Positions 12,410 through 57,982 of a stretch of DNA of 64,000 bases are shown here, piece by piece. The stretch is from the NCBI GenBank assembly GCA_028293545.1, contig JAQGOP010000011.1, positions 1-64,000 on the forward strand. Direction: 5' to 3'. The stretch's first letter is position 1. Each line of letters begins with the position of its first letter. Made by a program: the position numbers and the translations under genes. The notes beneath the pieces were generated by a model. It made no database searches, had not been told where the DNA came from, and saw only the letters and a program-made list of their open reading frames with translations. The stretch comes from Verrucomicrobiota bacterium (GTDB taxonomy: Bacteria; Verrucomicrobiota; Verrucomicrobiia; Opitutales; Opitutaceae).

Positions 12410-13345
12410 ATGCGGGTTGACCACAGCCAAGCCGCGCCCGCCTTCGCCCACGACACGGACGCGTTCCTTGCCTTCCTCGCGCTCGAGCGCGCGTTGGCGA
12501 AAAACACGCTCACCAGTTATCGCAGCGACCTCGACCAGGCCGCGGCCTTCCTGGCCAGGCGTGGCGTGGCGGACTGGCGGCACGTCGATCGCGAGCAGGC
12601 CGCGGAATGGATCCATTCGCTGAGCAAGCGCGCCTGCGCCCCGGCGAGCCTCGCGCGCAAGCTCACGGCGCTCCGCGGGCTCGCGCGCTTCCTGGCTCGC
12701 GAAAAAATCTGCGACAAGGATTTCACCGACCTGCTCACGGGGCCCAAGCTGGTGCGGCGCATTCCCGGCACGCTCACACCCGCAGAGATCGAGCGCCTGC
12801 TCGCCGCGCCGGCGGGCGGCGACGCGCGTTCACTGCGAGACCGGGCGCTGCTGGAATTATTTTATTCAAGCGGCCTGCGGGTTTCGGAATTGGCCGGGCT
12901 CACGCTGCAGCAGGTGAACCTCGAGCAGGGATTTCTCCGCGTCTTCGGCAAGGGATCGAAGGAGCGCGTGGTCCCGGTCGGTGCGAAAGCGGCCGAGGCG
13001 CTGGCCACTTACTTCGCGTCGGGACGCCCGCATTTGGTGAAGAAGAAGACCGGCAGCCAGATTTTCCTGAACCCGCGCGGCACCGCGCTCTCGCGGGTTG
13101 CGTTGTGGATGATCGTGAAGAAAAACGCGCAGCGCGCCGGGATCACGAAGAATGTGAAACCGCACGGCCTGCGCCATTCCTTCGCCACGCACCTGTTGAC
13201 CGGCGGCGCGGATCTGCGCGCGATCCAGGAGATGCTGGGGCACGCGAGCATCTCGACGACGCAGATTTACACGGCGGTTGAATCAAAACGACTGCTCGAC
13301 CACCACGCGAAGTTTCACCCGCGGAATAAGACGAAACCAGAGTAG
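12410..13345 (+). CDS. tyrosine recombinase XerC/XerD
   Basis: These recombinases resolve chromosome dimers at dif. The 311-residue protein has an N-terminal SAM-like core-binding domain (15-105) and a catalytic domain. All catalytic residues are visible: R157 (SSGLRVSEL), K184 (GKGSKERVVP), H252 and R255 (HGLRHSFATHLL), H278 (LGHASISTTQ) and nucleophile Y287 (IYTAV). Length and motif spacing match XerC/XerD rather than phage integrases. Which of the two it is cannot be decided here. The TAG stop codon is the first triplet of a REP-like repeat. Confidence 0.9.
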   Translation: MRVDHSQAAPAFAHDTDAFLAFLALERALAKNTLTSYRSDLDQAAAFLARRGVADWRHVDREQAAEWIHSLSKRACAPASLARKLTALRGLARFLAREKICDKDFTDLLTGPKLVRRIPGTLTPAEIERLLAAPAGGDARSLRDRALLELFYSSGLRVSELAGLTLQQVNLEQGFLRVFGKGSKERVVPVGAKAAEALATYFASGRPHLVKKKTGSQIFLNPRGTALSRVALWMIVKKNAQRAGITKNVKPHGLRHSFATHLLTGGADLRAIQEMLGHASISTTQIYTAVESKRLLDHHAKFHPRNKTKPE

Positions 13346-13380
13346 CGCCGGGTCTCTGACCGGCTCATTCGGGCCCGTCT
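13343..13380 (+). repeat. family B palindromic repeat at the xerC stop codon
   Basis: tagcgccgggtctctgaccg continues to a cgggcccgtcta end, so the two TAG/CTA ends face each other. The first TAG is the stop codon of the recombinase gene. The 13346-13597 gap beyond it (252 bases) shows no gene. Confidence 0.7.
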
Positions 13381-13597
13381 ACGAACATTCGAATTCGACC
13401 GCGGCCGACCGCGATCCATTTATGGGTGGCAGGTTCTGGTCCGGATCGGATGAGCCGGTCGGAAACCGGTGCTCGATCGGGACAGGCGCCGGATTGAATC
13501 CAAGGCCCGGTTTCAGACGTACCAAGTGAACCCGTCGGCTTTTTCCTCCTTCCCCCTCCGATGGTTCCGTGCTTGCTTTCGTTCACCCCGCCCGTCC

Positions 13598-16500
13598 ATG
13601 ACCTCGCACCGTTTGTCCCTTGTCCGCCGTATTTTTTGCGCAGGTCTCGCGGCGTTGGCGGTGGGCGGCAGTGCGCTGCAGGCACAGACTCATATTTCGG
13701 GCACGCAATCCTCCCCGATTGTCGGGGATATCATCATCGATCCCGGCTTGACGGCGACGTTTGACCCGGGCGCGAGTTTCTCCGGGGCGAATGCGACGTT
13801 TTCCAGTACTTCAACGTTCAATTGGAACCAGGTCGGCGCGTTGACCGGAAAGACGATCACGTTGGGAACCAACGTGAACATCCAGGTCCTGACCGGCCAG
13901 TCTCTCACTTTCGGCGCCGGCAGCTCGATGACGGGAACGCTGCTTAATTTTTTCGGGGTCGGGGGTGCGGCCTTCATCAACCAGGGCACGATCAACCAGA
14001 CGACAAGCGGCGGCTCGATCAACATGCCGACCTTCACCAACGCAGCCGGCGGCCTGATCACGGTGTCCGGCGGAGGCTATCTCACTTTCCAAGGCACGAC
14101 CGTGACCAACAACGGGACGATCAGCGCCACCGGGTTTAACAATAACCTGATTTTCTACACGATGAACAACCTGGGCCTGGTCACCGGCGACAATGGTGCG
14201 TCCATCGTTTTCCAAGGCACGGGGTTTACCACCGCGAACCTTGGGACGATCCAGCTTTCCAACGGTGCGCAGGCCCTGATCGTCGGGTCGATTAACAACT
14301 CATCGGCGACCTTGGCGGCCCCGACCGGTGGCGCGTTCCAGCTCTACGGCGGCACGGTGACCGGCGGTACGATCAATAATAACGCGCTCCAGTTTACGAC
14401 GAACGGCGGCTTCCTCGATGGTGCGACGCTGGTCGGCGATCTCAATCTCGTGACGACCAGTGCGTCCGTTACCTTCAAGAATGCCGCGACCTTTACCGGG
14501 ACCAATTTGAACCTCGCGAGCTCGGCCTACCTCTATTGGCAGCAGGCCACCGCGCTTTCCAACAAGGCGCTCACCTTCGCGGGAAATTCCCTGATCTATG
14601 TTTCCGGCGTGAATAACACCCTGACCTTGGGGGCGGGGACGACCGCGACGGGCCAGATCCAAATTTACAGCGACGGCAGCACCGGTACCGCGATCACGAA
14701 CCAAGGTTCAATCACCCATACCTTCGGTTCGGGTAATATCTACGCGACCAGCTTCACGAACTCCGGTTCAATCACCGCAACCAATGGCTTGCTCTACCTC
14801 GGATACCCGAGCGCGAGTTATGTTTCGACGAATACCGGGACGATCACCGCCGACGGTTCGAGCACGACGGTTTATATCCGCGGGCCGTTCGATAACAACG
14901 GCACGCTGACGGCCCAGAATTCCGGCGTCCTGATATTTGACGGGGCGAACACCTCGGCGAATTTGGGCAACGTCGTGATCACTGGATCGGGGCGGGCGCT
15001 GCTGAACGGTGTCATCGACAACACCTCGAGCACCTTGCCCTCAGTCTCGGGAGGAACCTTCGAACTCTACGGCGGCACGATCACCGGTGGCACGGTTCCG
15101 TCGTCGGCGCTGCTATTCACGACCTCGAGCGGATACCTCGACGGTGTTTCCATTACCGGGGATTTGAATTTACCGACCACCGGTTCGTACGTTTATTTCA
15201 GGAGCGGCACGGGTTTCACGGGCGCGAACGTGAACTTCGGGACGTCGAGCTCGCTCTATTGGCAGCAAGTGGGAACCCTGAGCGGAAAAGCGCTCACCTT
15301 CGCCTCGAACGCCTATCTCTATATCAACGGGGTCAACAATACCCTGACCCTGGCCTCGGGTTCCACCGCGACGGGCTCGGTTTCGATTTATTCGGACGGG
15401 AGTGTCGGCACGGCTTTTACCAACCAAGGGGCGATCGCGTTTACCTCGGGTTCGGGTTCAATCTACGCCGCCAATTTCACGAACTCCGGCACGGTGATGG
15501 CAACAGGGGGAGTGCTCTACCTGGGCTATCCGAGCGTGCCCTATGCAGCGACGAACACGGGGTCGGTGACTTCGGATGGCTCTTCCACGACCGTTTATAT
15601 CCGAGGGGATTTCGACAACAATGGCACACTCACCGCGCAGAATTCGGGCCAGCTTATCTTCGACGGCAATAACACGTCCGCAAATCTGGGCAGCGTTGTC
15701 CTAGCGTCGGGCGGCCGTGCTTTGCTCAATGGCACGATCAATAACGCTTCGGCGTCACTGCCCGCGCCCACGGGCGGCGTTTTCGAACTCTATGGTGGCA
15801 CGATCATCGGCGGCACGGTATCGCCGAGTGCGCTTCATTTTACCACCTCGGCGGGAACCCTGGACAATGTTTCGATCCTCGGTGACCTCGATCTTCCGAC
15901 GGTGAACTCCTACTTCTACTTGAAGAATGGAACCAACTTCACCGGGACGAATGCGAATTTAGGCGCGAGCACCGCGCTCTATTGGCAGCAGGTCGGCACG
16001 CTCACGGGCAAGGCGCTCACGTTTGGGGCCAACTCCTATATTTATGTCAACGGCATCAACAATACGCTGACGCTTGGCCCCGGGTCCACCGCCACCGGCG
16101 CAGTTTCAATCTACTCCGATGGCAGCACCGGGACCGCGATCACGAACCAGGGCGCAATCACCTACAACGGCAGCAGCGGTTCGATTTACGCCGTAAATTT
16201 CACCAACGCGGGCTCGATCCTGGCCTCGGCCGGAACGCTCTACCTGGGCTATCCCAACGCTGTCTACAATGCGACGAATACGGGCAGCGTGACGTCCGAT
16301 GGCGCCGGCACGTATGTTTATATCCGGGGAAATTTCGACAACAACGGCACGCTCACCGCGCAGAATTCGGGCATATTGCGCTTCGACGGGAACACGACGA
16401 CGGCCAACCTCGGCAGCATCACAATCAGTTCCGGGGGAGCGGTTCAGCTCAACGGCCTTGTCGACAACACTGCGGCCACGATCACGGCTCCCACCGGCGG

Positions 16501-18355
16501 CTCGTACGATTTGCTGGGCGGCACGATCGTTGGCGGGACGATTGCTGCCGGCGCGGTGAATTTCACCACGAGCGCCGGCACGCTTGATGGCGTTTCACTC
16601 CTGGGCGATTTAAGCCTGTTGGCGCCGAGCGCGTACGTGCGCCTCGCGAATGGCACCAGTTTCTCGGGCGCCAACCTCAACCTCACGAGCTCGGCGGGCA
16701 TCTACTGGCAGCAGGTGGGCACGTTGGCGGGAAAAAATCTCAACCTCGGCAGCAACTCCTATATCTACCTGACGGGAGTGAACAACGCGCTCACCCTGGC
16801 GAACACGACGACGGTGAACGGCGACGCGAGCATTTATTCCGACGGCAGCACCGGGATCGTGCTGAATCTCCAGGGCGCGATCAACCACACGCTCGGCAAC
16901 GGCACGCTCTCCGCCCCGACGCTGACCAACTCCGGCACGATCACTTCGACCACCGGCATGCTTACTGTGGGTTCGGTTTCGGCAGGCTACAGCACGGTCA
17001 ACACCGGCTCGATCATTGCGGACGGCAGCAGCACCTCCGTTTATATCTACGGCAACTTTGACAACAACGGCACGCTGTCCGCGCAAAATTCCGCGCAGCT
17101 TCTTTTTTACGGTGACAACACCACGGCGAATCTCGGCAGCGTCCAGATCGCGAGCGGCGGGCGGGCGCTGCTGAATGGCGTGCTCGATAATACGGCCGCG
17201 ACGCTCAACACGATCATCGGGGGCAACTTCGAGCTGTATGGCGGCACCGTTAACAATGGAACGGTGGCCCCCGGCGCCTTGGCTTTCACTTCCAGCGGCG
17301 GAGTCTTGAGCAACGTCGCGCTTTCCGGCGACATCAGCGCCAACGCCGGCGCTTACGCGGAGTTCAGGAACGGCACCAACTTCACCGGCGCCAACGCCAC
17401 GCTTAACACTTCGGCCGGGATTTACTGGGAGCAGGTGGGCTCGCTCGTCGGGAAGTCGATTTCCCTCGGCTCGGGCGCCTACCTCTATGTTTCCGGGGTG
17501 AACAATTCGCTCACTATCGATCCCACGACGACGATCACCGGGACCGCGAATATTTATTCGGATGGCAACTCTGGGACCACGATCGTCAACCTGGGGACCA
17601 TCAACCAGACGCTCGGCGGCGGGTCGCTCTATGCGCGCTCGTTCACGAACTCCGGCACGATCAACCTTACGACGGGAACGAACTACCTCGGCTACGCGAG
17701 CGCAGGCTACACCTTCGACAACACCGCGAGCGGCACGATCACCGTCAATGGCGCGACCACCTACCTTCAGGTCCCGCTCAATAACCTGGGAGTGATGAAC
17801 GTCCAAAGCGGCACGCTTGTCACGAGCGGTAACCTGACCAACGGCAGCACAGGCACGCTCAAGGGCTCGGGCTCGGTGCTCGGCGACGTGACGATTGCCG
17901 GCGGCATGCTGACGCCGGGAAATTCCGTGGGCACCCTGACGTTCAACAGCGGTAATTTCGCCGTGACCGGGGCCTCGGTTTTCGGGATCGAGATCAGCGG
18001 CGCGACCGCGGACAAGGCGCTTTTCCTCGGGCCCACGTCGAACGTCGATATCGGCGCGGGCCTGTTGACGCTCAGCGTGTCGTTGTTGACGGCGCCGACC
18101 CCGGGGACGACCTACAGCATCATGTCGATCAGCGGGGGCTCGAATGTATTCAACGGTTACTTCGCCGGCCTGCCGAGCACAGGATCCTCGTTCATCGCCA
18201 CGTTGGGCCTGCAGGACTACCAGTTCACGGTTTCGTACCTCGCGAACACGATCAATTTGGATTTCATGCCCGTGCCCGAGCCGAGCACTTATGTGCTGGT
18301 CGGTGCCGGTCTCGCGATGCTCGTCGCCGCCCGCCTGCGTCGCCGGCGCGCGTGA
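13598..18355 (+). CDS. giant secreted repeat protein with PEP-CTERM signal
   Basis: The product is 1585 residues. A signal peptide (RRIFCAGLAALAVGGSALQA, about 8-28) starts it, and the C-terminus VPEPSTYVLVGAGLAMLVAA then RLRRRR is a PEP-CTERM signal: PEP motif, hydrophobic helix, arginine tail. Such proteins are exported and processed by an exosortase, which is not in this window. The body is six units of about 238-241 residues. Unit landmarks are YWQQVGTL-GKALTF, ATNTGSVTSDG, NFDNNGTLTAQNSG and TTANLGS. The YWQQ landmark recurs at 13817, 14531, 15254, 15977, 16700 and 17420. The Ser/Thr/Gly/Asn-rich beta pattern resembles autotransporter passengers. ATG 13598 is chosen because the signal peptide starts there. 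Likely a surface or matrix protein. Confidence 0.88.
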   Translation: MTSHRLSLVRRIFCAGLAALAVGGSALQAQTHISGTQSSPIVGDIIIDPGLTATFDPGASFSGANATFSSTSTFNWNQVGALTGKTITLGTNVNIQVLTGQSLTFGAGSSMTGTLLNFFGVGGAAFINQGTINQTTSGGSINMPTFTNAAGGLITVSGGGYLTFQGTTVTNNGTISATGFNNNLIFYTMNNLGLVTGDNGASIVFQGTGFTTANLGTIQLSNGAQALIVGSINNSSATLAAPTGGAFQLYGGTVTGGTINNNALQFTTNGGFLDGATLVGDLNLVTTSASVTFKNAATFTGTNLNLASSAYLYWQQATALSNKALTFAGNSLIYVSGVNNTLTLGAGTTATGQIQIYSDGSTGTAITNQGSITHTFGSGNIYATSFTNSGSITATNGLLYLGYPSASYVSTNTGTITADGSSTTVYIRGPFDNNGTLTAQNSGVLIFDGANTSANLGNVVITGSGRALLNGVIDNTSSTLPSVSGGTFELYGGTITGGTVPSSALLFTTSSGYLDGVSITGDLNLPTTGSYVYFRSGTGFTGANVNFGTSSSLYWQQVGTLSGKALTFASNAYLYINGVNNTLTLASGSTATGSVSIYSDGSVGTAFTNQGAIAFTSGSGSIYAANFTNSGTVMATGGVLYLGYPSVPYAATNTGSVTSDGSSTTVYIRGDFDNNGTLTAQNSGQLIFDGNNTSANLGSVVLASGGRALLNGTINNASASLPAPTGGVFELYGGTIIGGTVSPSALHFTTSAGTLDNVSILGDLDLPTVNSYFYLKNGTNFTGTNANLGASTALYWQQVGTLTGKALTFGANSYIYVNGINNTLTLGPGSTATGAVSIYSDGSTGTAITNQGAITYNGSSGSIYAVNFTNAGSILASAGTLYLGYPNAVYNATNTGSVTSDGAGTYVYIRGNFDNNGTLTAQNSGILRFDGNTTTANLGSITISSGGAVQLNGLVDNTAATITAPTGGSYDLLGGTIVGGTIAAGAVNFTTSAGTLDGVSLLGDLSLLAPSAYVRLANGTSFSGANLNLTSSAGIYWQQVGTLAGKNLNLGSNSYIYLTGVNNALTLANTTTVNGDASIYSDGSTGIVLNLQGAINHTLGNGTLSAPTLTNSGTITSTTGMLTVGSVSAGYSTVNTGSIIADGSSTSVYIYGNFDNNGTLSAQNSAQLLFYGDNTTANLGSVQIASGGRALLNGVLDNTAATLNTIIGGNFELYGGTVNNGTVAPGALAFTSSGGVLSNVALSGDISANAGAYAEFRNGTNFTGANATLNTSAGIYWEQVGSLVGKSISLGSGAYLYVSGVNNSLTIDPTTTITGTANIYSDGNSGTTIVNLGTINQTLGGGSLYARSFTNSGTINLTTGTNYLGYASAGYTFDNTASGTITVNGATTYLQVPLNNLGVMNVQSGTLVTSGNLTNGSTGTLKGSGSVLGDVTIAGGMLTPGNSVGTLTFNSGNFAVTGASVFGIEISGATADKALFLGPTSNVDIGAGLLTLSVSLLTAPTPGTTYSIMSISGGSNVFNGYFAGLPSTGSSFIATLGLQDYQFTVSYLANTINLDFMPVPEPSTYVLVGAGLAMLVAARLRRRRA

Positions 18356-18358
18356 AGG

Positions 18359-18391
18359 CGGAGCGGGTTGTCCCTAACACGCTGAGCGGCA
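18359..18391 (+). repeat. dispersed repeat, family C
   Basis: cggagcgggttgtccctaac then acgctgagcggc, related to copies at 10495, 43569 and 55088. It begins 3 bases after the stop codon of the giant repeat protein. Confidence 0.65.
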
Positions 18392-18491
18392 CCGTCCGCG
18401 ATTTATCATTGTCGGAGTCGAACGGGACGCATCGTCCACCGCGTTCCACGCTGTTTGCTTTGCGGGAAATCCTACGCTCGTTGCGAGCAAG

Positions 18492-19466
18492 ATGGAATTC
18501 CAGTTTACTCCAGTCTCGGCTCCGCCCTCCGACGCGTCGTTGCTCGACACGTACTCCCAATCGGTTTCCAGCGCCGTGGCCGCGGCGCACCCGGCCGTCG
18601 TCCACATTGAAGTGCAGGGCAATTCCGCCCCGGGTGGCTCCGGCTCCGGCTTCTTCATTTCGCCCGACGGCTACGTGCTCACGAACAGCCACGTTGTCCA
18701 CGGCGCGCGGGCATTGAAGGTTTTTCTCGCGGACGGCCGCAAGCTGTCGGCCGATCTCATTGGCGACGATCCTGACACCGACCTCGCGGTCTTGCGGGTG
18801 AGTACGGACGAACTTGCGCATCTCGCGCTCGCAGACAGCGACGCGGTGCGGCCGGGCCAGATTGCCATCGCGATCGGGTCGCCCATGGGATTCCAGCAGA
18901 CGGTGACCGCCGGGATTGTCAGCGGGCTCGGGCGTTCGCTGCGCGGCGCCTCGGGACGCCTCATCGACAATGTCATCCAGACCGATGCCGCGTTGAACCC
19001 GGGAAACTCCGGCGGGCCGCTCGTGAACACCCGCGGCGAAGTGATCGGGGTCAACACCGCGATCATCCGCCCGGCACAGGGAATTTGTTTCGCGATCGCG
19101 AGCAACACCGCGCGCTGGGTCGTGGCGTGGCTGATCAAGGACGGCCGGATTCGCCGGAGCTTCATTGGCCTCGCCGGCCAAAATGTCCCGTTGATCCGCA
19201 AGGTCGCGCGCTATCACCACATCGCGCAGGAAACGGGCGTGCTGGTGGCGGGGATGGACCCGGGCAGTCCGGCGGCGCGCTCGGGTTTACTGGAAGGCGA
19301 CATCGTGCTGGCGCTGGATGGCGTCCCGACGCCCGCGATCGACACGCTGCACAAATTGCTGACGGCAGATCGAATCGGTGAGCGGGCGATCGTCACGTTT
19401 CTTCGCGGCGTGGAACTGCGGCGCCACGCGATCATCCCGCTCGAGATGCCGACACGTCCGGAGTAG
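18492..19466 (+). CDS. HtrA/DegP-like serine protease with PDZ domain
   Basis: The 324 residues form a trypsin-like S1C domain with the catalytic triad H67 (LTNSHVV), D97 (DTDLAVLRV) and S173 (NPGNSGGPL), followed by one PDZ domain (about 215-310). DegP-type proteases normally remove misfolded proteins in the periplasm. No signal peptide or membrane anchor is visible from ATG 18492 (MEFQFTPVSAPP), so either it is cytoplasmic or the true start lies elsewhere; no better start was seen. E. coli DegP has two PDZ domains, so this is the shorter DegS-like layout. It lies between two giant secreted proteins. The TAG stop is shared with a family B repeat. Confidence 0.88.
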   Translation: MEFQFTPVSAPPSDASLLDTYSQSVSSAVAAAHPAVVHIEVQGNSAPGGSGSGFFISPDGYVLTNSHVVHGARALKVFLADGRKLSADLIGDDPDTDLAVLRVSTDELAHLALADSDAVRPGQIAIAIGSPMGFQQTVTAGIVSGLGRSLRGASGRLIDNVIQTDAALNPGNSGGPLVNTRGEVIGVNTAIIRPAQGICFAIASNTARWVVAWLIKDGRIRRSFIGLAGQNVPLIRKVARYHHIAQETGVLVAGMDPGSPAARSGLLEGDIVLALDGVPTPAIDTLHKLLTADRIGERAIVTFLRGVELRRHAIIPLEMPTRPE

Positions 19467-19490
19467 CGCAGGCGGCCCGCCCGCTCCGGG
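19464..19490 (+). repeat. family B palindromic repeat at the htrA-like stop codon
   Basis: tagcgcaggcggcccgcccg with an internal gcaggcgg/cccgcc symmetry; the TAG ends the protease gene. The rest of the gap contains a ggaaaccggatcgg piece of family A near 19577. Confidence 0.72.
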
Positions 19491-20442: not shown

Positions 20443-23400
20443 GTGAAGCCCCTATTGCGGACCGCCCTAGTTGCGGCGTTGACCCTTTTGCTGGGCGTAA
20501 TGTCGGTCCGCGAAGCGCGCGCAGTAGTTTATACATGGAATTCCGGCGATATAGTCACCGGCTCGATTTCGCCGAGTGGGACGTTGACGATCAACTCCGC
20601 TGACACGCTCGATATCCACACCGGCAACGACCACGACCTCAACGGGCGCCTGGCGGTCAACAATGGCACGGTCCTTTGGGTGAACGGCGATATTCGAGGC
20701 GGCAACGGCGGTGGCTTTGTCAACAATGCGACGTGGAACGACTCGGCCAACAGTTCCCAGATCAACAACGCGTTCGGCGGCAGCGGCGGCACGGTGTTCA
20801 ACAACGCCGTCGGCGGATCCTATAACAAGACCTCCGGCCTGACCACGTTCAACATCGGGTTCACCAACCAGGGCACGATCAACGTGAGCGGCGGCACGCT
20901 GAACCTCGCGCAGGGCGGGACGTTTTCGAACGGCTCGGTCGCCGGCAGTTCCGGTTCCGGCATCCTCAAGCTCACCGGTGGGACGCTTACGATGACGGGC
21001 AACGTGACCCTCACGAATTTCCTGCTGCTGGCGGGAACGTTTTCCGGCAACCACACGCTCACGGGCAGCACGATCAATTGGCAGGATGGGAATATGAACG
21101 GCGCGTTCACGACGACGCTGGCGTCCGGCACTTCGCTCACGATCACGACGGGCGCCGACAAGGATCTCAACGCGCACGCGCTCGTGAATTACGGCACGAT
21201 CAATTGGACCAACGGCAACCTGCGCTCGGGCAATGGCGGGGTAATCACCAACCACGGCCTCTGGGTCGATACGGCCAACGGCGACCAGATCAATAATGCT
21301 TTCGGCGGTACCGGTGGGACGACGTTTATCAATGCCGCGGACGGCACCTACACCAAGACTTCCGGCACGAGTAGCTTCGAAGTGGGCTTCATCAACTACG
21401 GCGCGGTCTCGGTGACCGGCGGCACGCTGAACATCGATGCAGGCGGCACCTTTTATAATGGCTCGACGATCGGGAGCAGCGGGACCGGCGTGGTGCAGTT
21501 GACGGGAGGATTATTCACCGGCGCCGGCGGGGGAAATTTCACCGCGACGAATCTATTGCTGACCGGCGGCACGATCGGCGACGGCATCGTTTTCCTCGGA
21601 ACGACCAATTGGATCTCCAGCAATTTCAATGGGGTGGGCACGTCCCAGGTCGGCGCCGGCGCGACGCTCAACGTGTCGAGCGGGGCGGATCACGATTTGC
21701 AGAGCCACACCGTGGTGAACAGCGGCACGGTGAACTGGCAGGCCGGGAACATTCGCTCCGGTTCCGGCGGCATCATCACCAATCACGGCACCTGGAATGA
21801 CACCGCGGACACCTATCAGGTGAACAATGCCTTTGGCGGCACGGGCGGCACCACGTTTCAAAATGCTTCCGACGGCACCTATCACAAAATCTCGGGCGTC
21901 TCGACCTTGGCCGGCGTCCTCGTCAATGACGGCGTCATCAGCGTCACCGGCGGCACCCTCAACCTCGTTGGCGGCACCCTCAACGATAACTCCACGATCG
22001 GAAGTTCGGGTTCAGGGGTGGTGCAGTTGACGAGTGGGACGTTGACGGGCTCGGGCACGCTTTTCGTCCAGAATTTCCTGCTCAGTGGCGGCGTGGTCGC
22101 CGGCACGCAGACTTTCCAAGGCACGCTCAGCTGGCTGGCGAGTGCGTTCAGCGGGTCCGGCACGTCCACGTTCGGGAGTGGATCCACGCTCTCGATCCTG
22201 ACCGGCAACGATCACGATTACAATGGGCGGACCCTTGTGAACAACGGCACCGTCGCATGGACCGCGGGGAATATCCGCTCCGGCAACGGCGGCTCGTTCA
22301 CGAATAACTCCGTGTGGAACGACTCGAGCAACGGCTTTCAGATCAACAACGCATTCGGCGGATCCGGCGGCACGACTTTCACCAACAACGGCACCTACAA
22401 CAAGACCGCCGGCACGACCACGCTCGCCGGTTCCGTCCTCGTCAACAATGGGACCATCAGTGTCTCGAACGGCACGCTCAACCTCGACGGCGGTATCCTG
22501 AACAACGGATCCACGATCGGGAGTTCCGGCACCGGCACGGTCCAGCTGGTTTCGAGCAACCTGGTCGGCAACGGCACGCTCCACGTGCAGAATTTCCTTT
22601 TGACCGGCGGCTCGCTGAGTGGCACGCAGGCTTTCGATGGCAGCCTGAACTGGGTGGCCACCACGCTCGGCAACACCGGCTCCACGACGATTACAAACAC
22701 GGGCGCGTTCACGATCAGCAGCGGCAACGATCACGATTTCAACAGCCACACGATCGTCAACAACGGCACGGTCACTTGGACCGCTGGCAACCTGCGCTCC
22801 GGCAGCGGCGGCAGCATTACGAATAACGGGACTTGGAATGACTCGGCGAGTTACCAGGTCAACAATGCGTTCGGCGGATCCGGCGGCACGACCTTCGCGA
22901 ACAACGGCACCTATAACAAAACGGGCGGCACCTCGATCCTCGCGAACGGCGTGTTGGTCAACAACGGCATCATCAACGTCAGCGCCGGCACGTTGACGCT
23001 CGACGGTGGCTTGCTGAACACCGGTTCGTCGCTCGTCAGCACCGGTTCCGGTCTCGCCCAGTTGAACTCCGGCGCCCTGTCGGCCATCGGGACGGTCAAC
23101 GTCCAGAACTTTCTGTTGAACGGCGGCGTGCTCCTCGGCTCGCAAACGTTCACCGGCTCGCTGAGCTGGGTGGCGACGGACCTGAACACCGCGTACACGA
23201 CCACCGCCGACAGCGCCGCGGCTTTCATCATTACGTCCGGCAGCGACCACAACTTCAGCAGCCATACGATCGTCAACAACGGCACCGTCACTTGGGTCGC
23301 CGGCGATCTCCGCTCGGGCAACGGCGGCAGGATCACGAATAACGGGGTTTGGAACGACGCCTCCTCGAACCAAATCAACAATGCCTACGGCGGTGCGGGC

Positions 23401-24120
23401 GGCACGGCCTATGTCAACGGCGTCACGGGTGTTTATAACAAGGTTTCCGGCGCGAGCACGATGCAGGTGCCGTTCACGAACAACGGTTACCTGGCGCTGC
23501 AGGGCGGAAGCCTCACGCTGAACAGCACGTTCACGAGTTCGACCGGCCACGTCACGCTCGGCGCGGGCAGCACGCTCAGCTCCGGCAGCGCGCTGGTCTT
23601 TGACGATGGCTCACTGGTTGACGGATCGGGGACCTTGACGGCGCCGTCGATCGCAATGAGCGGCGATTTCGCTCCAGGCAGCGCGTTGAGTTCGGGGGTG
23701 TTGAACGTCACCGCCAACCTCACGCTGCTCGGGGTCTCCCGTTCGGCATTTGGCCTCGGCGGGACGACGGTCGGCAGCGGCTACGACCAGCTCGCCGTCA
23801 GCGGTACGACCACGCTGGGCGGGGACTTGGTGATTTATTTCCGGGGTTCGTTTGAGTCCACGGTGACAAACGGAATGACATTTACGGTGCTCAGTTCGAC
23901 CAACCTCGCGGGCTCCTTCGGCAACATCGTGAACGGAGGCCAGCTTTACTCGGCCGATGGGCTCGCACGGTTCACCGTGAATTACGGAGTCGGCAGCCCA
24001 TTCGGTGCGACCAACGTGGTGCTTTCGAATTATACCATGGTGCCTGAGCCATCGACCTGGGCCCTGTTGCTGAGCGGCGCGGGTTTGCTCGCACTCCGGT
24101 TCCGTCGCCGTCGCAAGTAG
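20443..24120 (+). CDS. second giant secreted repeat protein with PEP-CTERM signal
   Basis: A 1225-residue protein with a GTG start ([20 protein letters not shown]) and a signal peptide ending near AREARA. The C-terminus [20 protein letters not shown] then RFRRRRK is a PEP-CTERM signal. Six internal units of about 172-177 residues are marked by [17 protein letters not shown] and by [15 protein letters not shown] and [12 protein letters not shown]. Landmarks start at 20623, 21151, 21682, 22204, 22723 and 23239. The Asn/Gly/Thr/Ser-rich repeats predict a beta-helix. It differs in sequence from the 13598 protein but shares the plan: six units, a non-repeat C-terminal domain and a sorting signal. 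Likely displayed on or released from the surface. The TAG stop starts a family B repeat. Confidence 0.88.
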
Positions 24121-24146
24121 CGCAGGCGCCCGCCTGCTTCGTGAAG
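24118..24146 (+). repeat. family B palindromic repeat at a stop codon
   Basis: tagcgcaggcgcccgcctgc is a clear palindrome (gcaggcg, two-base loop, cgcctgc). Its first triplet is the stop codon of the giant PEP-CTERM gene. Confidence 0.78.
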
Positions 24147-24262
24147 TAGCGAGTAGCGAACGACCGAGGCCTTTGCCCGCGCATGCTCGCTTTTTCGCGA
24201 CGCCGGTCCCGCGCGCGCTACTTTCGTTTGCCAACCATCCCGGCCCGTCGAACATCGCCGAC

Positions 24263-31266: not shown

Positions 31267-31281
31267 TGTTCGATCTTCGGA

Positions 31282-31302
31282 GCAGGCGGGCCGCCTGCGC
31301 TA
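31282..31302. repeat. family B palindrome between convergent pqiB and purL
   Basis: gcaggcgggccgcctgcgcta carries an 8-bp palindrome and ends in a CTA, so it is an inverted copy of the TAGCGCAGGC element. It lies between the stops of pqiB and purL. Confidence 0.75.
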
Positions 31303-31321: not shown

Positions 31322-34300
31322 TCATCCCACCCAGGCGCGGGCGTTGTAGAAGAGCTTCATCCACGGGCTGTCTTCGCCCCAGGTCTTGGGCGCCCAGCTC
31401 ATGCAGGCGGACCGGAACACGCGCTCCGGGTGCGGCATCATGATGGTCGTGCGCCCGGTCGTCGTCGTGAGCGCAGTCATGCCCAAGGGCGAACCGTTCG
31501 GGTTGAGCGGATATTTTTCGGTGTAAACCCGCGCGGGTTTTGATCCGCCTTGGGCGGACGATTTCGCCAGCGCGAGAGCCTGCTGGTTGTCGATGAAGCG
31601 GGCGACGACGAGGCCTGAGTCGCTGCACGCGCGGAGCGCGGCGTCGTCCTTGAATTCCGCGTAACCCTCGCCATGCGCCACGGCGATGGGAATCACCGAG
31701 CCCGCCATCCCGGCGAACAGGACGCTCGGCGTGGGTTCGATCTTAACCGACACAAACCGGCCTTCGTAACGCTCCGATTGGTTCTGCACAAAACGCGGCC
31801 AGTGGCTCGAGCCCGGGATGATCGAATGGAGGTTGCTCATCATCTGGCAGCCGTTGCACACGCCGAGCGCGAACGCATCCTCGCGCGCGAAAAATGCCGC
31901 GAACTCCGCCCGGGCCCGGTCATTGAACAGGATGCTCTTGGCCCAGCCTTCGCCCGCGCCAAGCACGTCGCCGTAGCTGAAGCCGCCGCAGGCCGCCAGG
32001 CCACGAAAATCCTCAAGGGAGATTCGCCCGCTGAGGATGTCGGTCATGTGGACATCCACCGCCGCGAATCCCGCGCGCGTGAACGCCGCGGCCATCTCGA
32101 GCTGCCCGTTCACACCCTGCTCGCGCAGGATCGCAATCCGCGGTTTCGCGCCGGGCCGGGCGATTTTCCGATCGTGGCTTCCGCTTTTCACCCCGGGTTG
32201 CCAATCGAAGGTGATCGTCGGCGTGATGCCCGGATTGGTGGGATCGAGCTTCAACCGGAACTCGGACTCCGCGCAGGTGGGATTGTCGCGCAGCGCGGAG
32301 ATCCGGCGCGTGACGTCCGACCAGATGGCGCGCAACGCGAAGAGATTTTGCTCGAAGATGGCTTCGCCGCCGCGGATCACCCGGAAGATATGGGCGCGGT
32401 TCAGCGTCCCGATGCGTGATGTCGCGCTGTCGAGCCCATGCATGCGGAGCACGGCGTTGACGGCCTCGAAATCGTCCGCGCGAATCTGGATCACGGCGCC
32501 CAGCTCTTCGGCGAAGAGTTGCGCGAAGACCGAGGAGTGGGCCGGAAGTTCGAGGTCGACGCCGGTGTGCCCCGCGAAGGCCATCTCGACCACGGTCGCG
32601 AGCAATCCGCCGTCGGCCCGATCGTGGTAGGCGAGCAGCTTTTGCTCGCGCCCGAGCTGCTGGATCGCATTCCAGAAAGCCTTGAGGTCGTCGGCGCGAT
32701 CGACGTCGGGAGGACTCGCGCCGGCCTGTGACAGCACTTGTCCGAGGATCGAGCCACCCAGGCGATTTTTGCCGCGGCCGAGGTCGATGAGCAGCAGCAG
32801 GGTTTCGCCGATGTTTTGGCCGGGGCCGGCCGCCGTGTCGGGGTCGTAGCGCAGCTGGGGCGTGAGCGTGAGTCGGACGTCGTTTACTGCGGCAAACGCC
32901 GAGATGACGACTGAGATCGGCGCGGTGACGCGTTTGTCCGCACCGGACGCGGCGTCCTTCCACGCCGTGCTCATGCTCATCGAGTCTTTGCCGACGGGAA
33001 TCGTGATGCCGAGGGCGGGGCAAAGGTCGATTCCGACCGCGCGCACCGCGGCGTACAAATCGGCGCCGTCGCCGGGAATCGCCGGGGCGGCCATCCAGTT
33101 CGCGGAGAGATTCACTTTGCCGAGTTCGCCGATTTGAGCGGCGGCGAGATTCGTGAGCGACTCGCCCACCGCGAGCCGGGCCGAGGCGGCGGCATCGTTG
33201 AGCGCGACCGGCGTACGCTCACCCATCGCCATGGCCTCGCCGGTATAGACATCGTACGCGGCCGCCGTCACGGCGCAGTCGGCGACGGGGACCTGCCACG
33301 GCCCAACCATTTGGTCGCGGGCAATCAAGCCGCCCAGCGTGCGGTCGCCGATGGAGATGAGGAAAGTCTTGTCCGCCACGGTGGGGTGGGAGAGCACGCG
33401 GCGAACGGCTTCATCCAGCGAAACGCCGTCGAGGTCCAGCGGCGCGAGCGGACGCACGAGTTTCCGATCGCTGCGGTGCATGCGCGGCGGTTTGCCGAGC
33501 AGCACGTCGAGCGGGAGGTCGATCGGCGTGTTCTTGAAATGAGCGTCCTCGAGCACGAGCTGCTTCTTTTCGGTGGCCTCGCCGACGACGGCGAACGGGC
33601 AGCGCTCGCGTTCGCAGAGCGCGGTGAACGTCGCGAGATGCGAGGTGGGCACGGCGAGCACGTAGCGTTCCTGGGATTCGTTGCACCAGATCTCGAGCGG
33701 GCTCATGCCCGGTTCGTCGTTGGGCACGGCGCGCAGCTGGAAACGCCCGCCGCGGCCGGCGTCGTTCACCAGTTCGGGAAGCGCGTTGGAAATTCCCCCG
33801 GCGCCGACGTCGTGGATAAATGAAATCGGGTTCCGCTCGCCGAGCGCCCAACACCGGTCGATCACTTCCTGGCACCGGCGCTCCATCTCCGCGTTGTCCC
33901 GCTGCACGCTCGCGAAATCGAGATCCTCGTTCCCCGTCCCGCTGGCCATGGAACTGGCCGCGCCGCCGCCCAAACCGATGAGCATCGCCGGCCCGCCGAG
34001 CACGATCAGCTGGTCGCCGGGATTGATCGCGCCTTTCTTGACGTGGCCCGCGCGGATATTCCCGAGCCCGCCGGCGAGCATGATGGGTTTATGGTAACCG
34101 CGGATTTCTGTTTGGCCGCGCGCCGCGGAGGCGGACTCGACGGCCGCGGGAACTTCCTGCTCAAAGGTCCGGAAGTAACCGTTGATGTTGGGCCGGCCGA
34201 ACTCGTTGTTGAACGCCGCACCGCCGAGCGGGCCTTCGATCATGATGTCCAAGGCGCTCACGATGCGCCCGGGTTTTCCGTGCTCTTTTTCCCAAGGCTG

Positions 34301-35413
34301 GATCGCGCCGGGCAGCTTTAGATTTGAAACCGTGAAGCCGGTGAGCCCGACCTTTGGCTTGGAGCCGCGGCCCGTGGCGCCTTCATCGCGGATTTCCCCG
34401 CCCGATCCCGTCGCGGCACCCGGAAACGGCGAGATGGCCGTGGGATGGTTGTGCGTCTCGACCTTGCAGAGCACGTGGATCTCTTCGTCGACCGCGGCGT
34501 ATTCGTTGCTTTTCGGGTCGACGAAAAAACGTCCGCCACGAGTGCCGACGAACACCGCGGAGTTGTCCTTGTAAGCCGAAAGAATCCCGTCGCTGTGCAA
34601 CTGGTGCGTGTTCCGGATCATCTGGAACAGCGAAAGATCGCAGGCGGCGCCATCGATGTCCCACGTCGCGTTGAAAATTTTATGCCGGCAGTGCTCCGAG
34701 TTTGCCTGTGCGAACATCATCAGCTCGATGTCGTTCGGGTCGCGCCGCAAGGCGGTGAACGCCCGGACGAGGTAATCGATTTCATCGTCCGCGAGCGCGA
34801 GGCCCAGCGATTGGTTCGCGGCGACGAGGGCGGCGCGACCTTCGGCGAGCACGGGCACGCTCGCCATCGGTCGCGGGGTCTCGTGACGGAAAAGCGCGCC
34901 GAGCGATTCGAAATCGCCGAATACCGCCTGGGTCATCCGGTCGTGAAGGCGGGCACTGAGTTTCAGGCGAAGGGCGCCAGGCGGTAAGCTGGGCGCAGTG
35001 GCCGCAGTCACTTCCGGTGGATTGCTCCCCGCCGCGGTTCGCTTGTCGCCGACGCCATCGGGTGCCAGCCCGATCGTGTAGGCGATGACGCGCTCGATCC
35101 GCTTGACCTTCGCGAGACCGCAGATGTGCGCGATATCCGTGGCCTTGGAAGACCAGGGCGAAATGGTGCCAGGACGCGGGGCGACGATTTGCAGGATTCC
35201 GTCCGCGGCGACGGCGGGGGCGCGGCGCGGACCATACTGGAGAAGCTGGTCGAGGATCGCTCGCTCGGATGGGTCCAGGTCAGCATCGGTTTCGACGACG
35301 TGGACAAACTCGGCGCCCACGGCACGGACCGGCAACCCGGCAGCCGTGAAATCCTGAAGGAGTTTCTGGAGGCGGAAGGGAGAGAGGGCGGGCGAGCCAC
35401 GAAGGATCAACAT
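31322..35413 (-). CDS. purL: phosphoribosylformylglycinamidine synthase
   Basis: PurL converts FGAR, glutamine and ATP to FGAM, the fourth step of purine synthesis. The 1363 residues (E. coli 1295) begin [19 protein letters not shown], the usual start of the large single-chain form. Visible parts are the [20 protein letters not shown] motif of the first AIRS domain, a second AIRS half, and a C-terminal glutaminase with nucleophile cysteine in GVCNGCQ and HGEG. ATG 35413 is chosen by comparison with the family; an open frame upstream to 35614 runs through the purF leader repeat. It is transcribed divergently from purF. Confidence 0.97.
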
Positions 35414-37759: not shown

Positions 37760-37792
37760 AATTTCGGATCGCGGATTTCGGATTGCGGATTG
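37760..37792. repeat. dispersed repeat, family A, after purF
   Basis: atttcggatcgcggatttcg then gattgcggat, starting right after the purF stop. A degenerate inverted copy, aatccacaatccgcaa, sits at about 37879-37897 before purM. The two copies flank the purF-purM gap. Confidence 0.75.
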
Positions 37793-37903
37793 GCGAACCC
37801 AGCATTTTCCCGGCTCTATTTCCAACATGTACCGCGTTTCCCTGGGCCATGAATTTTTCGGCTTCCTGCAATTCGCATTTCGAAATCCACAATCCGCAAC
37901 CGC

Positions 37904-43455: not shown

Positions 43456-43568
43456 TTTTTTCGGATTTCGGAAACCGGAACGGACGGGGATCGGAAGGTA
43501 GGGCGGTGTCTCCGATCCGCCTCCGACGCAGCGCCGAGTTGGGCACCAGATTCCTCGATCTTTTCGGA

Positions 43569-43598
43569 AGCGTCTTAGGGACAAGCCGCTCCACCTAC
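43569..43598. repeat. dispersed repeat, family C, supplying a stop codon
   Basis: agcgtcttagggacaagccg then ctccacctac. On the minus strand it begins GTAGGTGGAGCGGCTTGT, and that TAG is the stop codon of the small membrane gene at 43595. Confidence 0.72.
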
Positions 43599-43819
43599 TT
43601 GCCGGAAAATTTCTGCCGCATCACCATCCAGAGCGCGGCGATGACGATCACGTCGCCGGTGAGGATGAACACGCGGATTGGCAGCGGAAAACGCCGCAGC
43701 ATCACGAGCGCGAGAATGGCGCTGCCGCTGACCAGGAGCAGGGCGATCGTGAAGGAGAGCTTTTGCCGCGCGGTTTCGCCGGCGCGGGGATCAGTGGGAG
43801 GAATGGGCGACTTGGACAT
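43595..43819 (-). CDS. small membrane protein, unknown
   Basis: A 74-residue protein with two hydrophobic helices (LSFTIALLLVSGSAILALVM, about 21-40, and VFILTGDVIVIAALWMVM) and a polar N-terminus with SPIPPTDP. It has the form of a small anchor or regulator, but no family was recognised. It lies 57 bases after the histidine kinase on the same strand, and its TAG stop comes from a family C repeat. Confidence 0.6.
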   Translation of the reverse strand: MSKSPIPPTDPRAGETARQKLSFTIALLLVSGSAILALVMLRRFPLPIRVFILTGDVIVIAALWMVMRQKFSGK

Positions 43820-52115: not shown

Positions 52116-52322
52116 CGGAAGAGATGGACGCGCCGTTGTGACGTGCTTGAAATGTTGGAGAACGGAATGGCCGAAGCGACGAGGCTTCCGGGGATAAGTT
52201 TGAGAATCAAGGCCGGTGAGCAGCTGATCGAAATCTGACCTCAGACTGATACTCTTCGTCCACGAAATCTTGACGAGACCGAGGGCGCTTGCCGAACCGG
52301 CTGCGATCCGTCTTCCTCCGTC

Positions 52323-54086
<1,764 letters not shown>

Positions 54087-54100
54087 GGAACCCGAACGCC

Positions 54101-55090
54101 ATGGACGACAGCGAAAATTTCCTCCCGGAAGACGAAGCGGCGACGCCGAAGAAATCATTCTGGGCTCACCTCAACGACCTGCGCACGGCCCTGATGCGAT
54201 CGGCCATCGCCATCGGCGTCGCGCTGGTGGTCTGCCTCCTGGTTTCCGACAAGATCATCGCGATCCTGGAATATCCGCTCCGGAAGATCGACATGTTCGA
54301 GAAGCCGCAGCCGACGGTGAGTTTCCAGATTGGAGCCACCAAGCTCGGTCCTTACCCGGTGACGCGGGAGCAGTTCGACGGCCTGCCGCCGGGCGAGGCC
54401 CCGCAGATTATTTTCCAAGTCGGCGCCGCCCAGGTGGGCAAGGAGCAGGTTGCGACGCTGAAACTGCTGCCCGCGCCGCCGGATGGCACCCCGAGTATGC
54501 GGGTGAAGCTGCACAACTTCGGCCCGGCGGAGGCATTTTTCGTGGCCTTTCACGTGGCGTTGTACGGCGCGCTCATCGTATCGGCTCCGTTTTGGGCTTA
54601 TTTCCTGGGGCAATTTTTCCTGCCGGCGCTCAACATCAAGGAACGAAAACTGTTTTTCGGCTGGATCGGGTGGAGCGTGGTTTTGTTTTTTGCCGGCGTG
54701 GCGATGACTTATTTCCTCCTGCTGCCCCTCGCGTTGCGCGCCTCAATTGAGTATTCCCGGTTGCTGGGCTTCGAGGCTTTCGACTGGCGCGCTGACGAGT
54801 ACATCGGCTTCGTGGCGAAATTTATTTTCGGCATGGGGCTGGGTTTTCAATTTCCGATCGTCGTCCTGCTCCTCGTCCAATTGGGCCTCGTGACTCACCA
54901 CCAGCTCGCCAAGTACCGCCGACACGTCGCGGTGTTGTCGCTGATCCTCGGCGCCGTGCTGACCACGCCGGAGGTGATCACGCAGGTCGCGATGGCCGTG
55001 CCGCTCTACATCCTTTACGAGGCCTGTATCTGGATCGCGTGGTACTGGGACTGGAAAAAGCGGAAGGCCGGCGGAGTGATCGATGTATAG
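54101..55090 (+). CDS. tatC: Sec-independent translocase subunit TatC with enlarged periplasmic loop
   Basis: TatC recognises twin-arginine signal peptides in the inner membrane. The 329-residue protein has FWAHLNDLRTALMRSAIAI at the start, the second-helix FFVAFHVALYGALIVSAPFW, the conserved ERKLFFGW and further membrane segments. Typical TatC has about 250 residues; the extra length lies mainly between membrane helices 1 and 2 (about residues 67-150), in the first periplasmic loop. A TAG stop is shared with a family C repeat. tatA is far away at 1-118, so the Tat genes are not in one operon. Confidence 0.93.
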   Translation: MDDSENFLPEDEAATPKKSFWAHLNDLRTALMRSAIAIGVALVVCLLVSDKIIAILEYPLRKIDMFEKPQPTVSFQIGATKLGPYPVTREQFDGLPPGEAPQIIFQVGAAQVGKEQVATLKLLPAPPDGTPSMRVKLHNFGPAEAFFVAFHVALYGALIVSAPFWAYFLGQFFLPALNIKERKLFFGWIGWSVVLFFAGVAMTYFLLLPLALRASIEYSRLLGFEAFDWRADEYIGFVAKFIFGMGLGFQFPIVVLLLVQLGLVTHHQLAKYRRHVAVLSLILGAVLTTPEVITQVAMAVPLYILYEACIWIAWYWDWKKRKAGGVIDV

Positions 55091-55122
55091 GTGGAACGCG
55101 TGGCCAACGCGTTGAGCGGCGC
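55088..55122 (+). repeat. dispersed repeat, family C, at the tatC stop codon
   Basis: taggtggaacgcgtggccaa then cgcgttgagcggcgc. The TAG is the tatC stop codon. Confidence 0.72.
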
Positions 55123-55242
55123 CGGGGGCAATTGAACGCGAGCGGAGCCAACCCGCGCGTCGGGGACAACCAGGCTTCGCGACTGGCGCGGGATTTACCG
55201 CTTGCGCCGAAGGCGCACGCGTGCGGCCATGGACCGTTCACC

Positions 55243-56386: not shown

Positions 56387-56500
56387 GGAAGGGCGGGGGC
56401 TGGAGGGCCGCGCTTACAACAGCCGCCGTTACTTGATCCCTTCGCTCGCAATTTGGCCGTTCAGCCCTTCAGTCGTTCAGCCCTCCAGCCATTTCCGCCG

Positions 56501-57901
56501 ATGCCTGACTTGCCCTACGACCAGATTCGCTCCGCTTTTGCCGGGCAGACGCTGTTCGAGGACAAGACCTGGCGGCTTTCGCCGGAAGCATGGCCGCTCA
56601 CCGGCGATCAGGTGGCGCAGCTGGAAGCGATCGGCGCCGCGTGCTTCGAATTCCACCAGGCGCTGGAAACCCTTTACCTGCGCTCGGTGGCGGGAAAAAA
56701 TCTGCTGCGCAACAAACCGCTGCTCACGCCGTGGGTCGCGGATTACCTCGATCGCGGGAAGCCCGCGGCGCTGATCGCCCATGCGCGCGATTCGCGGAAT
56801 CGCGGCGCGTTTCCCGCGGTGCTCCGGCCGGACCTGCTGCTGACCGATGACGGCTTCGCGTTGACCGAACTCGATTCCGTGCCGGGAGGAATCGGACTCA
56901 CGGCTTTCCTGAACCGTTTGTACGCGAGCGAGGACATCCTCGGTGGCGAGGCGATGATCGCAAATTTCTATGCCGCGCTCGCCGCGCTCAAACCCGATGC
57001 GCGCAATCCTTTCATCGCGCTTGTGGTGAGTGACGAGGCGGCGACTTACCGCCCGGAAATGATGTGGCTGGCGCACCAGCTCCAAGTCCAGGGTCGGCGC
57101 GTGTTCTGCGTTGGGCCCGATGAACTTTTTCCGCTCGGTCCGCAGCTCTGCGTCGATGTCGACGGCAACCCGGAAAAGGTCGACGTCATTTACCGTTTCT
57201 TCGAGTTGTTCGACCTCGCGAACGTGCGTACGGCGAAGTTCATCTTCGAGGCATGGCACGGCGGCGAGGTCGTGATCACGCCGCCGATGCGCCCTTTCCA
57301 GGAGGAAAAACTTTCGCTCGCGCTGTTTCACCATCACCTGCTGCAGGATTTCTGGGCGGAGACGCTGAGCAGCCGCGCCTTGAAATTACTGCGCGGATTG
57401 ATTCCACCTTCGTGGGTGATGGATCCCGCGCCGTTGCCCCCCGGGGCGGTGATTGAAGGGCCGAGGGCGGCGGGACGCATGCTGCACGACTGGCGGGAGC
57501 TGGCGAATGCGACCCAGAAGGAGCGCGACCTGATCCTGAAAATTTCCGGCTACCACGAGACGGCGTGGGGCGCGCGGAGCGTCATCCTCGGCAGCGATTC
57601 ATCACGCGAGGAGTGGCAGGAAGGCGTGCAGCGCGCGGTGGAGTTGGCGCCGACCAACCTGCACTTGCTCCAGGTGTACAAGAAACCGCGTCGCGTCCGT
57701 CATCGCGTCTATGAACGCGAGGCGCCGCATGAAGCCCGGGAAGTCGATGGGCGGCTGCGGCTTTGCCCGTATTATTTTATGGTCGGCGAACAGCCCAAGT
57801 TATCGGGTGCGCTCGCGACGTTTTGCCCGCCGGACAAAAAAATCATCCACGGCATGGTCGATGCCGCGTTGCTGCCGGCGAAGGTTTCAGCAGCGGGGTA
57901 G
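56501..57901 (+). CDS. conserved protein, possible ATP-grasp-like ligase, unknown
   Basis: A 466-residue soluble protein (MPDLPYDQIRSAF). Segments such as LLLTDDGFALTELDSVPGGI, RRVFCVGPDELF, VDVIYRFFELFDLANVRTAK and VVITPPMRPFQEEKLSLAL have the alternating acidic and glycine pattern of circularly permuted ATP-grasp enzymes, but no motif is certain. Such proteins often form peptide-like bonds. The TAG stop is provided by a repeat shared with the convergent gene at 57980. Function is unknown. Confidence 0.55.
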   Translation: MPDLPYDQIRSAFAGQTLFEDKTWRLSPEAWPLTGDQVAQLEAIGAACFEFHQALETLYLRSVAGKNLLRNKPLLTPWVADYLDRGKPAALIAHARDSRNRGAFPAVLRPDLLLTDDGFALTELDSVPGGIGLTAFLNRLYASEDILGGEAMIANFYAALAALKPDARNPFIALVVSDEAATYRPEMMWLAHQLQVQGRRVFCVGPDELFPLGPQLCVDVDGNPEKVDVIYRFFELFDLANVRTAKFIFEAWHGGEVVITPPMRPFQEEKLSLALFHHHLLQDFWAETLSSRALKLLRGLIPPSWVMDPAPLPPGAVIEGPRAAGRMLHDWRELANATQKERDLILKISGYHETAWGARSVILGSDSSREEWQEGVQRAVELAPTNLHLLQVYKKPRRVRHRVYEREAPHEAREVDGRLRLCPYYFMVGEQPKLSGALATFCPPDKKIIHGMVDAALLPAKVSAAG

Positions 57902-57982
57902 CGCGCGGTCTCTGACCCGCCGGCCGAAAGCTTGCGGCCTCTCTCGTGCTTTTCCCAACGGCGGGTCGGAGACCGCGCCCTA
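57899..57982. repeat. long inverted repeat giving TAG stop codons to two convergent genes
   Basis: Left arm gcgcggtctctgacccgccg (57903-57922) and right arm 57959-57978 pair with 19 of 20 matches and a 36-base loop. The plus-strand TAG before the left arm is the stop codon of the 56501 gene. The CTA after the right arm is the stop codon of the 57980 gene. Confidence 0.85.

Follow-up and report, generated by a model that had tools for sequence, protein, structure and literature searches.

Repetitive extragenic palindromic (REP) sequences tagged by the tetranucleotide GTAG form a superfamily whose 2013 description is reportedly the work of Di Nocera. According to the accessible text of that paper, the members, which include families from Opitutus terrae, are short GTAG-tagged palindromes that occur singly and as inverted dimers, mostly at the 3′ ends of genes; Opitutus terrae is highly enriched in them, and they often provide TAG stop codons (PMC3733652). 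Here we describe repeats of this kind in a metagenome-assembled genome from the Opitutaceae (G000; 3.96 Mb, 63 contigs, 84% complete), beginning with the window, by which we mean the whole stretch of 64,000 nucleotides analysed, the first 64 kb of contig C8. The repeats in G000 share all of these traits, and since TAG stops from GTAG REPs have been reported, the supply of stops by repeats is a known phenomenon. What we give in addition to the accessible text of that paper is the frequency of stop provision, a test of head against tail and a comparison with repeat-free orthologues, although our families are likened to the published ones by description and not by the sequences in its Figure 1.

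Related systems help to place these repeats, each described here from the accessible part of its source. The REPINs (REP doublets forming hairpins) of Pseudomonas fluorescens SBW25 likewise consist of inverted REP pairs with long hairpins and a link to REP-associated tyrosine transposases (RAYTs), but the SBW25 doublets are described as having a random distribution across extragenic DNA (Bertels and Rainey 2011, PMC3116915), whereas the copies here crowd at stop codons. In REPtrons a Y1-type RAYT, or TnpA-REP, gene has GTAG REPs on both flanks (PMC2817692, 2010; PMC8266576, 2021). A similar arrangement exists in G000, although its RAYT-like gene narrowly misses the NCBIfam cut-off and has family D on its flanks rather than B, the most abundant family. 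REPs immediately behind rayt stop codons were noted in 2010 (PMC2817692), and in the 2021 paper GTAG figures as an internal guide sequence (PMC8266576), in line with a TAG that arrives by insertion. In E. coli, REPs within 15 nt (<16 nt) of a stop are reported to lower protein (ref. 17 of PMC12306157). There, as here, a hairpin lies close behind the stop codon; for our repeats position alone is compared. The 2025 survey places 446 of the 4,072 REPs of E. coli at 15 nt or less, against 62 of the 75 family-B copies that lie behind a same-strand gene in our sample (62 of all 112), 35 of these being the stop itself (PMC12306157). Among PMC3733652, PMC12306157, PMC2817692, PMC8266576, PMC3390384 and PMC3116915, the accessible text states that REPs supply TAG stops only in the first; this coverage of the literature is partial, and the polarity described below is therefore not claimed as unpublished. 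What the present analysis contributes is the polarity, the tightness and the before/after comparison with orthologues.

The effect is real, strong and of a known kind. We consider it highly probable that the repeats are mobile REPs of the GTAG type which lie head-first at stop codons, with a TAG that belongs to the element and supplies genes with new amber stops.

Three GTAG-headed families were found in G000: B (GTAGCGCAGGCGGCCCGCCTGCTCCG), C (TAGGTGGARCG...) and D (TAG..GGTCTCTGACC, head pattern GTAGSGCGCGGTCTCYGACCCGCC). A single merged TAGCGC family was considered and ruled out, as neither the stem nor the loop is the same in B and D. The superfamily anatomy, a palindrome of 20-40 nt with GTAG at one end, is seen in the consensus sequences of B and D, and also in those of two families, X (GTAGCAGCCGA) and Y (GTAGGGCGGG), from the congener G008. 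The family-B consensus is GAAG followed by TAGCGCAGGCGGCCCGCCTGCTCCG, with a predicted hairpin of 7 bp; the window copies of B, C and D are also predicted to fold as hairpins. Family C begins with TAG, and the preceding G is present in some copies only (the copy at tatC has ATAG).

Genome-scale counts come from a sample of 1,225,711 of the 3,955,760 bases (31%) of G000, taken in stretches and including the window. Our own codon-pair script called 926 genes in it, which end on TGA in 469 cases, TAA in 229 and TAG in 228. An exact family-B copy is defined by the 11-mer GTAGCGCAGGC, which tops the list of 11-mers in the sample with 112 copies, tied with the overlapping GCGCAGGCGGC. The abundance is species-specific: across whole genomes this 11-mer occurs 361 times in G000, 81 times in G009, 67 times in G005 and 10-28 times in the nine other congeners, while the control, the backwards sequence, gives 2-20 copies. 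The 13-mer core of the family occurs 311 times in G000, 7 times in G009 and never in G008, where the 11-mer has 28 copies. The reason for the gathering of REPs at gene 3′ ends has long been debated, and the contrast of 361 copies with 10-28 in nine of eleven congeners makes this lineage suited to strain comparison. The copies are mostly extragenic, with 6 of the 112 inside predicted genes when stop copies are counted as outside. An inverted partner (at most 3 mismatches) lies within 260 nt of 49 of the 112, against 100 of 2000 random windows, and the 88 clusters of exact copies comprise 23 head-out pairs, one same-direction pair and 64 singles. Inverted pairs of the REPIN or BIME (bacterial interspersed mosaic element) type therefore exist for family B, but singles prevail.

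How tightly do these repeats keep to the ends of genes? We place them on a scale where -3 means that the TAG of the repeat is the stop codon and +n that its head lies n nt behind a same-strand stop. Of the 112 exact B copies 35 are the stop codon; the gene ahead is on the same strand for another 40 and on the opposite strand for 31, and the last 6 are inside genes. For the first two groups, 75 copies together, the positions are -3 in 35 cases, +1 to +5 in 24, +6 to +10 in none, +11 to +25 in seven and beyond that in nine. When these 75 are compared with uniform placement in 100,000 simulations, 59 fall at -3 to +5 against 4.7 expected and a simulated maximum of 16, and 35 fall exactly at -3 against 0.5 expected. 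A reading of the window made from its sequence alone (the sequence-only reading) had judged that the pattern looks non-random, and this holds in the sample. The stops ahead of the 24 copies at +1 to +5 are TGA in 14 cases, TAA in nine and TAG in one. A GTAG that is not followed by CGCA never occurs at +2, the position of 14 repeats, and a looser B head (GTAGCGCA) adds one copy at +6. Apart from the stop copies, only one B copy lies within a gene of its own strand, at a distance of more than 150 nt from the gene end, so wrong-frame copies in the last codons are missing.

Family C, by its exact pattern, is at stops in 5 of 7 cases, and family D in 9 of 27, with four more copies at 0 to +4. As in the GTAG superfamily, then, the repeats lie near gene 3′ ends with a TAG that can be used as the stop. 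Five patterns of the B, C and D types together account for 58 of the 228 sampled TAG stops. If our reading is correct, this is a clean case of a mobile repeat that rewrites stop codons genome-wide with little change in the proteins compared. Perfect hairpins of at least 7 bp that start within 10 nt of the stop follow 29 of 120 GTAG-ending genes against 41 of 806 others; the same test in G008 gives 9 of 75 against 31 of 871.

The contact with stops is made by one side of the element. Within 10 nt of a stop we find 59 of the 112 B heads and none of the 112 tails; the figures are 28 and 0 of 48 for copies that have no inverted partner within 300 nt, and 13 and 0 of 27 for family D. Gene 3′ ends are faced by 76 B heads and 60 B tails, so the opportunity is similar for both sides. 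Nor is the polarity merely a by-product of a TAG closing the reading frame, because the 24 copies behind existing stops are also head-first. The palindrome is nearly symmetric, and a mere hairpin role should therefore be indifferent to direction. Families X and Y of G008 also follow genes, more loosely, with 3 of 55 and 6 of 56 copies at stops; within 10 nt of a stop X has 7 of 55 heads and no tails, and Y has 14 of 56 heads and 5 of 56 tails. The head-only abutment and the family-specific spacing argue for a cause in the manner of element insertion, and it is this sharp polarity that tells an origin by mechanism apart from one by selection alone. As a separate observation, copies of family X (GTAGCAGCCGACGTAAGGAGGCTG) often leave 9-24 nt between themselves and the stop ahead instead of abutting it (e.g. 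L141:10417 and L119:19708).

In the window itself, a census with one pattern for each of B, C and D finds ten heads, eight of which are stop codons. The heads, together with a D-like head outside all three patterns, are as follows.

7387-7411, minus strand: degenerate family-B REP head, matching over its first 10 nt only; its TAG (7409-7411) is the stop of the open reading frame (ORF) 7409-7654 (minus).
13343-13467, plus strand: family-D REP with inverted partner, arms 13351-13371 and 13447-13467; its TAG (13343-13345) terminates the xerC-like gene 12410-13345.
19464-19488, plus strand: family-B REP; its TAG (19464-19466) terminates the htrA-like gene 18492-19466.
24118-24141, plus strand: family-B REP, one base shorter; its TAG (24118-24120) terminates the giant repeat-rich gene 20443-24120.
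31278-31302, minus strand: family-B REP, not a stop; gene 31322-35413 (minus) ends on TGA 19 nt ahead of it.
35770, minus strand: pattern-matched head, not a stop; no gene on its strand ends in the 300 nt upstream of it.
43498-43522, plus strand: D-like REP head (GTAGGGCGGTGTCTCCGATCCGCC), not a stop, inverted relative to the family-C head that follows and paired with it in the predicted fold.
43573-43597, minus strand: family-C REP head; its TAG (43595-43597) terminates the small gene 43595-43819 (minus).
55088-55122, plus strand: family-C REP; its TAG (55088-55090) is the stop of tatC (54101-55090).
57893-57988, both strands: family-D REP dimer of the REPIN/BIME type that fills the gap of a convergent gene pair, with TAGs at 57899-57901 (plus) and 57980-57982 (minus).

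The sequence-only reading had named seven of these TAGs as stops, and all seven are in-frame ORF stops; the TAG at 7409-7411 (minus) is an eighth. It had also grouped the repeats into two families. Its family C is real, but its family B splits into B proper (19464, 24118) and D (13343, 57899, 57982). Its proposal that one hairpin serves both convergent genes agrees with the structure of the dimer: the stops are those of 56501-57901 (plus) and 57980-58276 (minus), the inverted repeat has arms of 30 nt that are 87% complementary with 36 nt between them, and both stops lie within the stem of a predicted fold of -64.7 kcal/mol. Taken alone, the pattern TAGGTGGAGCG is not above chance in the window (two matches with at most one mismatch against 0.62 expected; 14 of 100 shuffles reach two).

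Eleven congeners, including G002-G011, were used for comparison, with 1.18 Mb of G008 for the gene-by-gene analysis: 270 of the 926 G000 genes were matched there, 170 of them alignable to the C-terminus. Twelve repeat-stop genes are comparable, and their ends lie -4 to +2 residues from the end of the G008 orthologue, with no shift in five; the orthologues stop on TGA in five cases, TAG in five and TAA in two. For all five genes that have a B copy behind their stop, the C-terminal position is the same as in G008. Repeat-free genes show a shift of 0 in 96 of 153 cases and one within 4 in 132 of 153, so the repeat-stop genes are not unusual in this respect. The earlier suggestion that repeats create new C-termini thus stands for small shifts and for an element-like last codon, usually AAG, and for nothing larger. 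AAG directly precedes the TAG in 21 of 35 stop copies of family B, in 17 of 24 copies at 1-5 nt and in 26 of 53 elsewhere; it is the last codon in 21 of 35 B stop cases against 53 of 264 among other NNG codons. Because it also precedes the copies elsewhere, this last codon is best read as element sequence.

The clearest history is that of the tatC stop. Eight of the 11 congeners end it at residue 329, as in G000, and all eight use TGA or TAA; in G005 and G008 the shared last residues GGVIDV are followed by TGA. The gene ends later in G010 (+2 residues, TAA), G007 (+2, TGA) and G003 (+4, TAG), which brings TGA or TAA to 10 of 11. As eight congeners end at the identical residue with another stop, the TAG of tatC is derived and was brought by the repeat. 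The TAG of the second convergent gene is derived as well: in all four readable relatives (G002, G004, G006, G008) a TGA or TAA closes the gene after the same residue. Relatives of the first convergent gene are mixed, with TGA in five and a TAG a few codons further on in six. The orthologues of this gene in G011 (L182) and G009 (L183) also seem to hold about 80 nt extra at the same place, their matches breaking at query residues 143/146 within one open frame. The htrA-like gene ends on TAG in G008, G005 and G002, on TAA in G009 and on TGA in G003 and G006, its end in G010 (L192) being unreadable. The xerC-like orthologue in G008 is 2 residues shorter and likewise ends on TAG, and the small gene 43595-43819 stops at the same residue in G008 with TAA, followed by a different GTAG REP.

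A candidate for the enzyme that moves the repeats was found with a PF01797 profile search of G000, which gave three places, two above the cut-off. The RAYT-like gene (G000:C14:70813-71421, equal to L011:1444-2052, minus strand) encodes 202 aa and scores 30.1 bits against a cut-off of 23; against NF047646, the NCBIfam model of REP-associated tyrosine transposases, it reaches E=9.8e-22 and 77.4 bits. It is flanked by D-type REPs, two heads upstream and one forward and one inverted head downstream, and the gene past its upstream flank (L011:2293-3201, minus) likewise ends on the TAG of a REP head. Two other proteins were considered as movers of family B and rejected. An IS200-like TnpA at C60 (L010) fits the insertion sequence group IS200/IS605 (NF033573) better, and neither it nor a 344-aa Y1 protein at C1 (L012) has a B head in the roughly 250 nt on either side.

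We propose that the repeats, as single REPs and inverted REP pairs, are non-autonomous mobile hairpins of the kind that RAYTs move, transposases of the REP-associated Y1 tyrosine type, and that the conserved GTAG head tetranucleotide is part of the element. Copies would settle head-first on the coding strand within about 10 bases of gene stop codons. A copy that lands just behind a stop would leave the old stop in use, and one that lands in the last codons would be tolerated only with its TAG in frame, giving a new amber stop, usually with the element-derived AAG (Lys) before it. Such a frame filter, presumably purifying selection, would explain why TAG copies upstream of the old stop occur in frame only; a RAYT would be the insertion catalyst, and head-first insertion, beyond selection alone, the probable cause of the polarity. 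A more speculative extension, which we regard as improbable, makes the GTAG head a safe-landing device: a RAYT would join REPs head-first to the coding (non-template) strand where this lies exposed just past the final translated codon, for instance in R-loops beginning at the point of ribosome release from the mRNA, and the TAG would neutralise any overshoot, both the targeting of stops and the in-frame stop having evolved. If true, it would account for the polarity, the flanking of all three stop types and the precision of a few bases.

Several points weigh against the proposal of mobile, stop-supplying REPs. Transposition itself is not among the observations. The RAYT-like protein stays just below the NCBIfam cut-off (77.4 against 80), a phmmer search with it gave no relative of solved structure, and in the 84%-complete genome no cognate enzyme for family B or C was found, the RAYT-like gene being flanked by D. 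Loosened patterns dilute the effect: allowing 2 mismatches yields 257 matches for family B, of which 40 fall at stops and 114 inside genes, and allowing 1 yields 22 for family C, six at stops and eight inside genes. Not every family in the genus is as tight or as polar, as the looser G008 families and the 5 of 56 Y tails near stops make clear. The base of comparison is small, with 12 repeat-stop genes, and some TAGs may predate the repeat, because the 5 of 12 in G008 exceed the background of 165 in 949 genes (17%, p=0.04); among repeat-free TAG genes a similar share, 11 of 33, has TAG in G008.

This excess, and the TAG of the htrA-like gene in G008, G005 and G002, is what one would expect if a transposase targeted a pre-existing stop within GTAG and the element proper began after it. 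IS200/IS605 elements do insert 3′ of a fixed tetranucleotide. However, the 24 copies at 1-5 nt behind a stop, 23 of them behind TGA or TAA, bear their own GTAG there, while GTAG without CGCA is absent from the very position, +2, where 14 repeats sit. The relatives of tatC and of the second convergent gene also end on TGA or TAA, at the identical residue in eight congeners and in all four readable ones respectively, and according to the accessible text of PMC8266576 GTAG serves the element as a guide sequence, the cleavage sites being CT or CA. We therefore judge this explanation quite improbable; insertion next to a TAG, as suggested by the sequence-only reading, fails for the 24 copies, tatC and the second convergent gene and may hold elsewhere. 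Its suggestion of selection for hairpins at gene ends, whether for protection of mRNA 3′ ends, for termination or for slowed terminating ribosomes, with the TAG incidental, fits the stable stems of the predicted folds and the 62 of 75 B copies in the 15-nt range where E. coli REPs lower translation (PMC12306157). Alone, it leaves the contact by the GTAG side only (59 against 0 of 112) unexplained, as the palindrome is near-symmetric and 60 tails face gene ends. The G008 families sit at other distances, and copies that abut stops are not more diverged than the rest (0.68 against 1.34 mismatches), so long sorting is not evident. As the full account we find it rather unlikely.

The lower divergence of the abutting copies (p=0.04) also speaks against a deletion ratchet, in which copies would land anywhere behind genes and later deletion of the spacer would let the head TAG rescue a lost stop. 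Such a process would account for the stop swaps, the filled convergent gap and the small C-terminal changes, but it should erode tail sides too, and no tail is near a stop; nor is there any exact copy at 6-10 nt, the one at 6 having the looser head. It is very improbable in our view. Finally, any in-frame ORF that enters a head must stop there, and our gene calls come from our own script, so that the enrichment could come from chance or from the gene calling. This trap does not bear on the 24 copies behind an existing stop, all 12 repeat-stop orthologues in G008 end within 4 codons, and 35 copies at the stop stand against 0.5 expected, which leaves this explanation a negligible chance.

Further repeats accompany those described here. 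A second repeat, ATTTGAACAGAAGGCAACGAAGGTAACGAAG, often lies some tens of bases behind a B REP (e.g. L022:209 and L047:14737), and TTTGAACA is seen 69 times in the sample against 37 expected. Heptamer arrays of the type GTAGCGAGTAGCGGGTAGC follow many B copies, e.g. at 24146-24157 in the window, and GTAGCGAGTAGC has 26 copies in the sample. The window also holds two giant genes of degenerate internal repeats (13655-18355 and 20443-24120, with units of 723 nt and about 516-531 nt) and a dispersed repeat, AATTTCGGATCGCGGATTTCGGATTGCGGAT, at 7267-7300, 37760-37793 and 61071-61104, with identities to the first copy of 97% for the second and 79% for the third.

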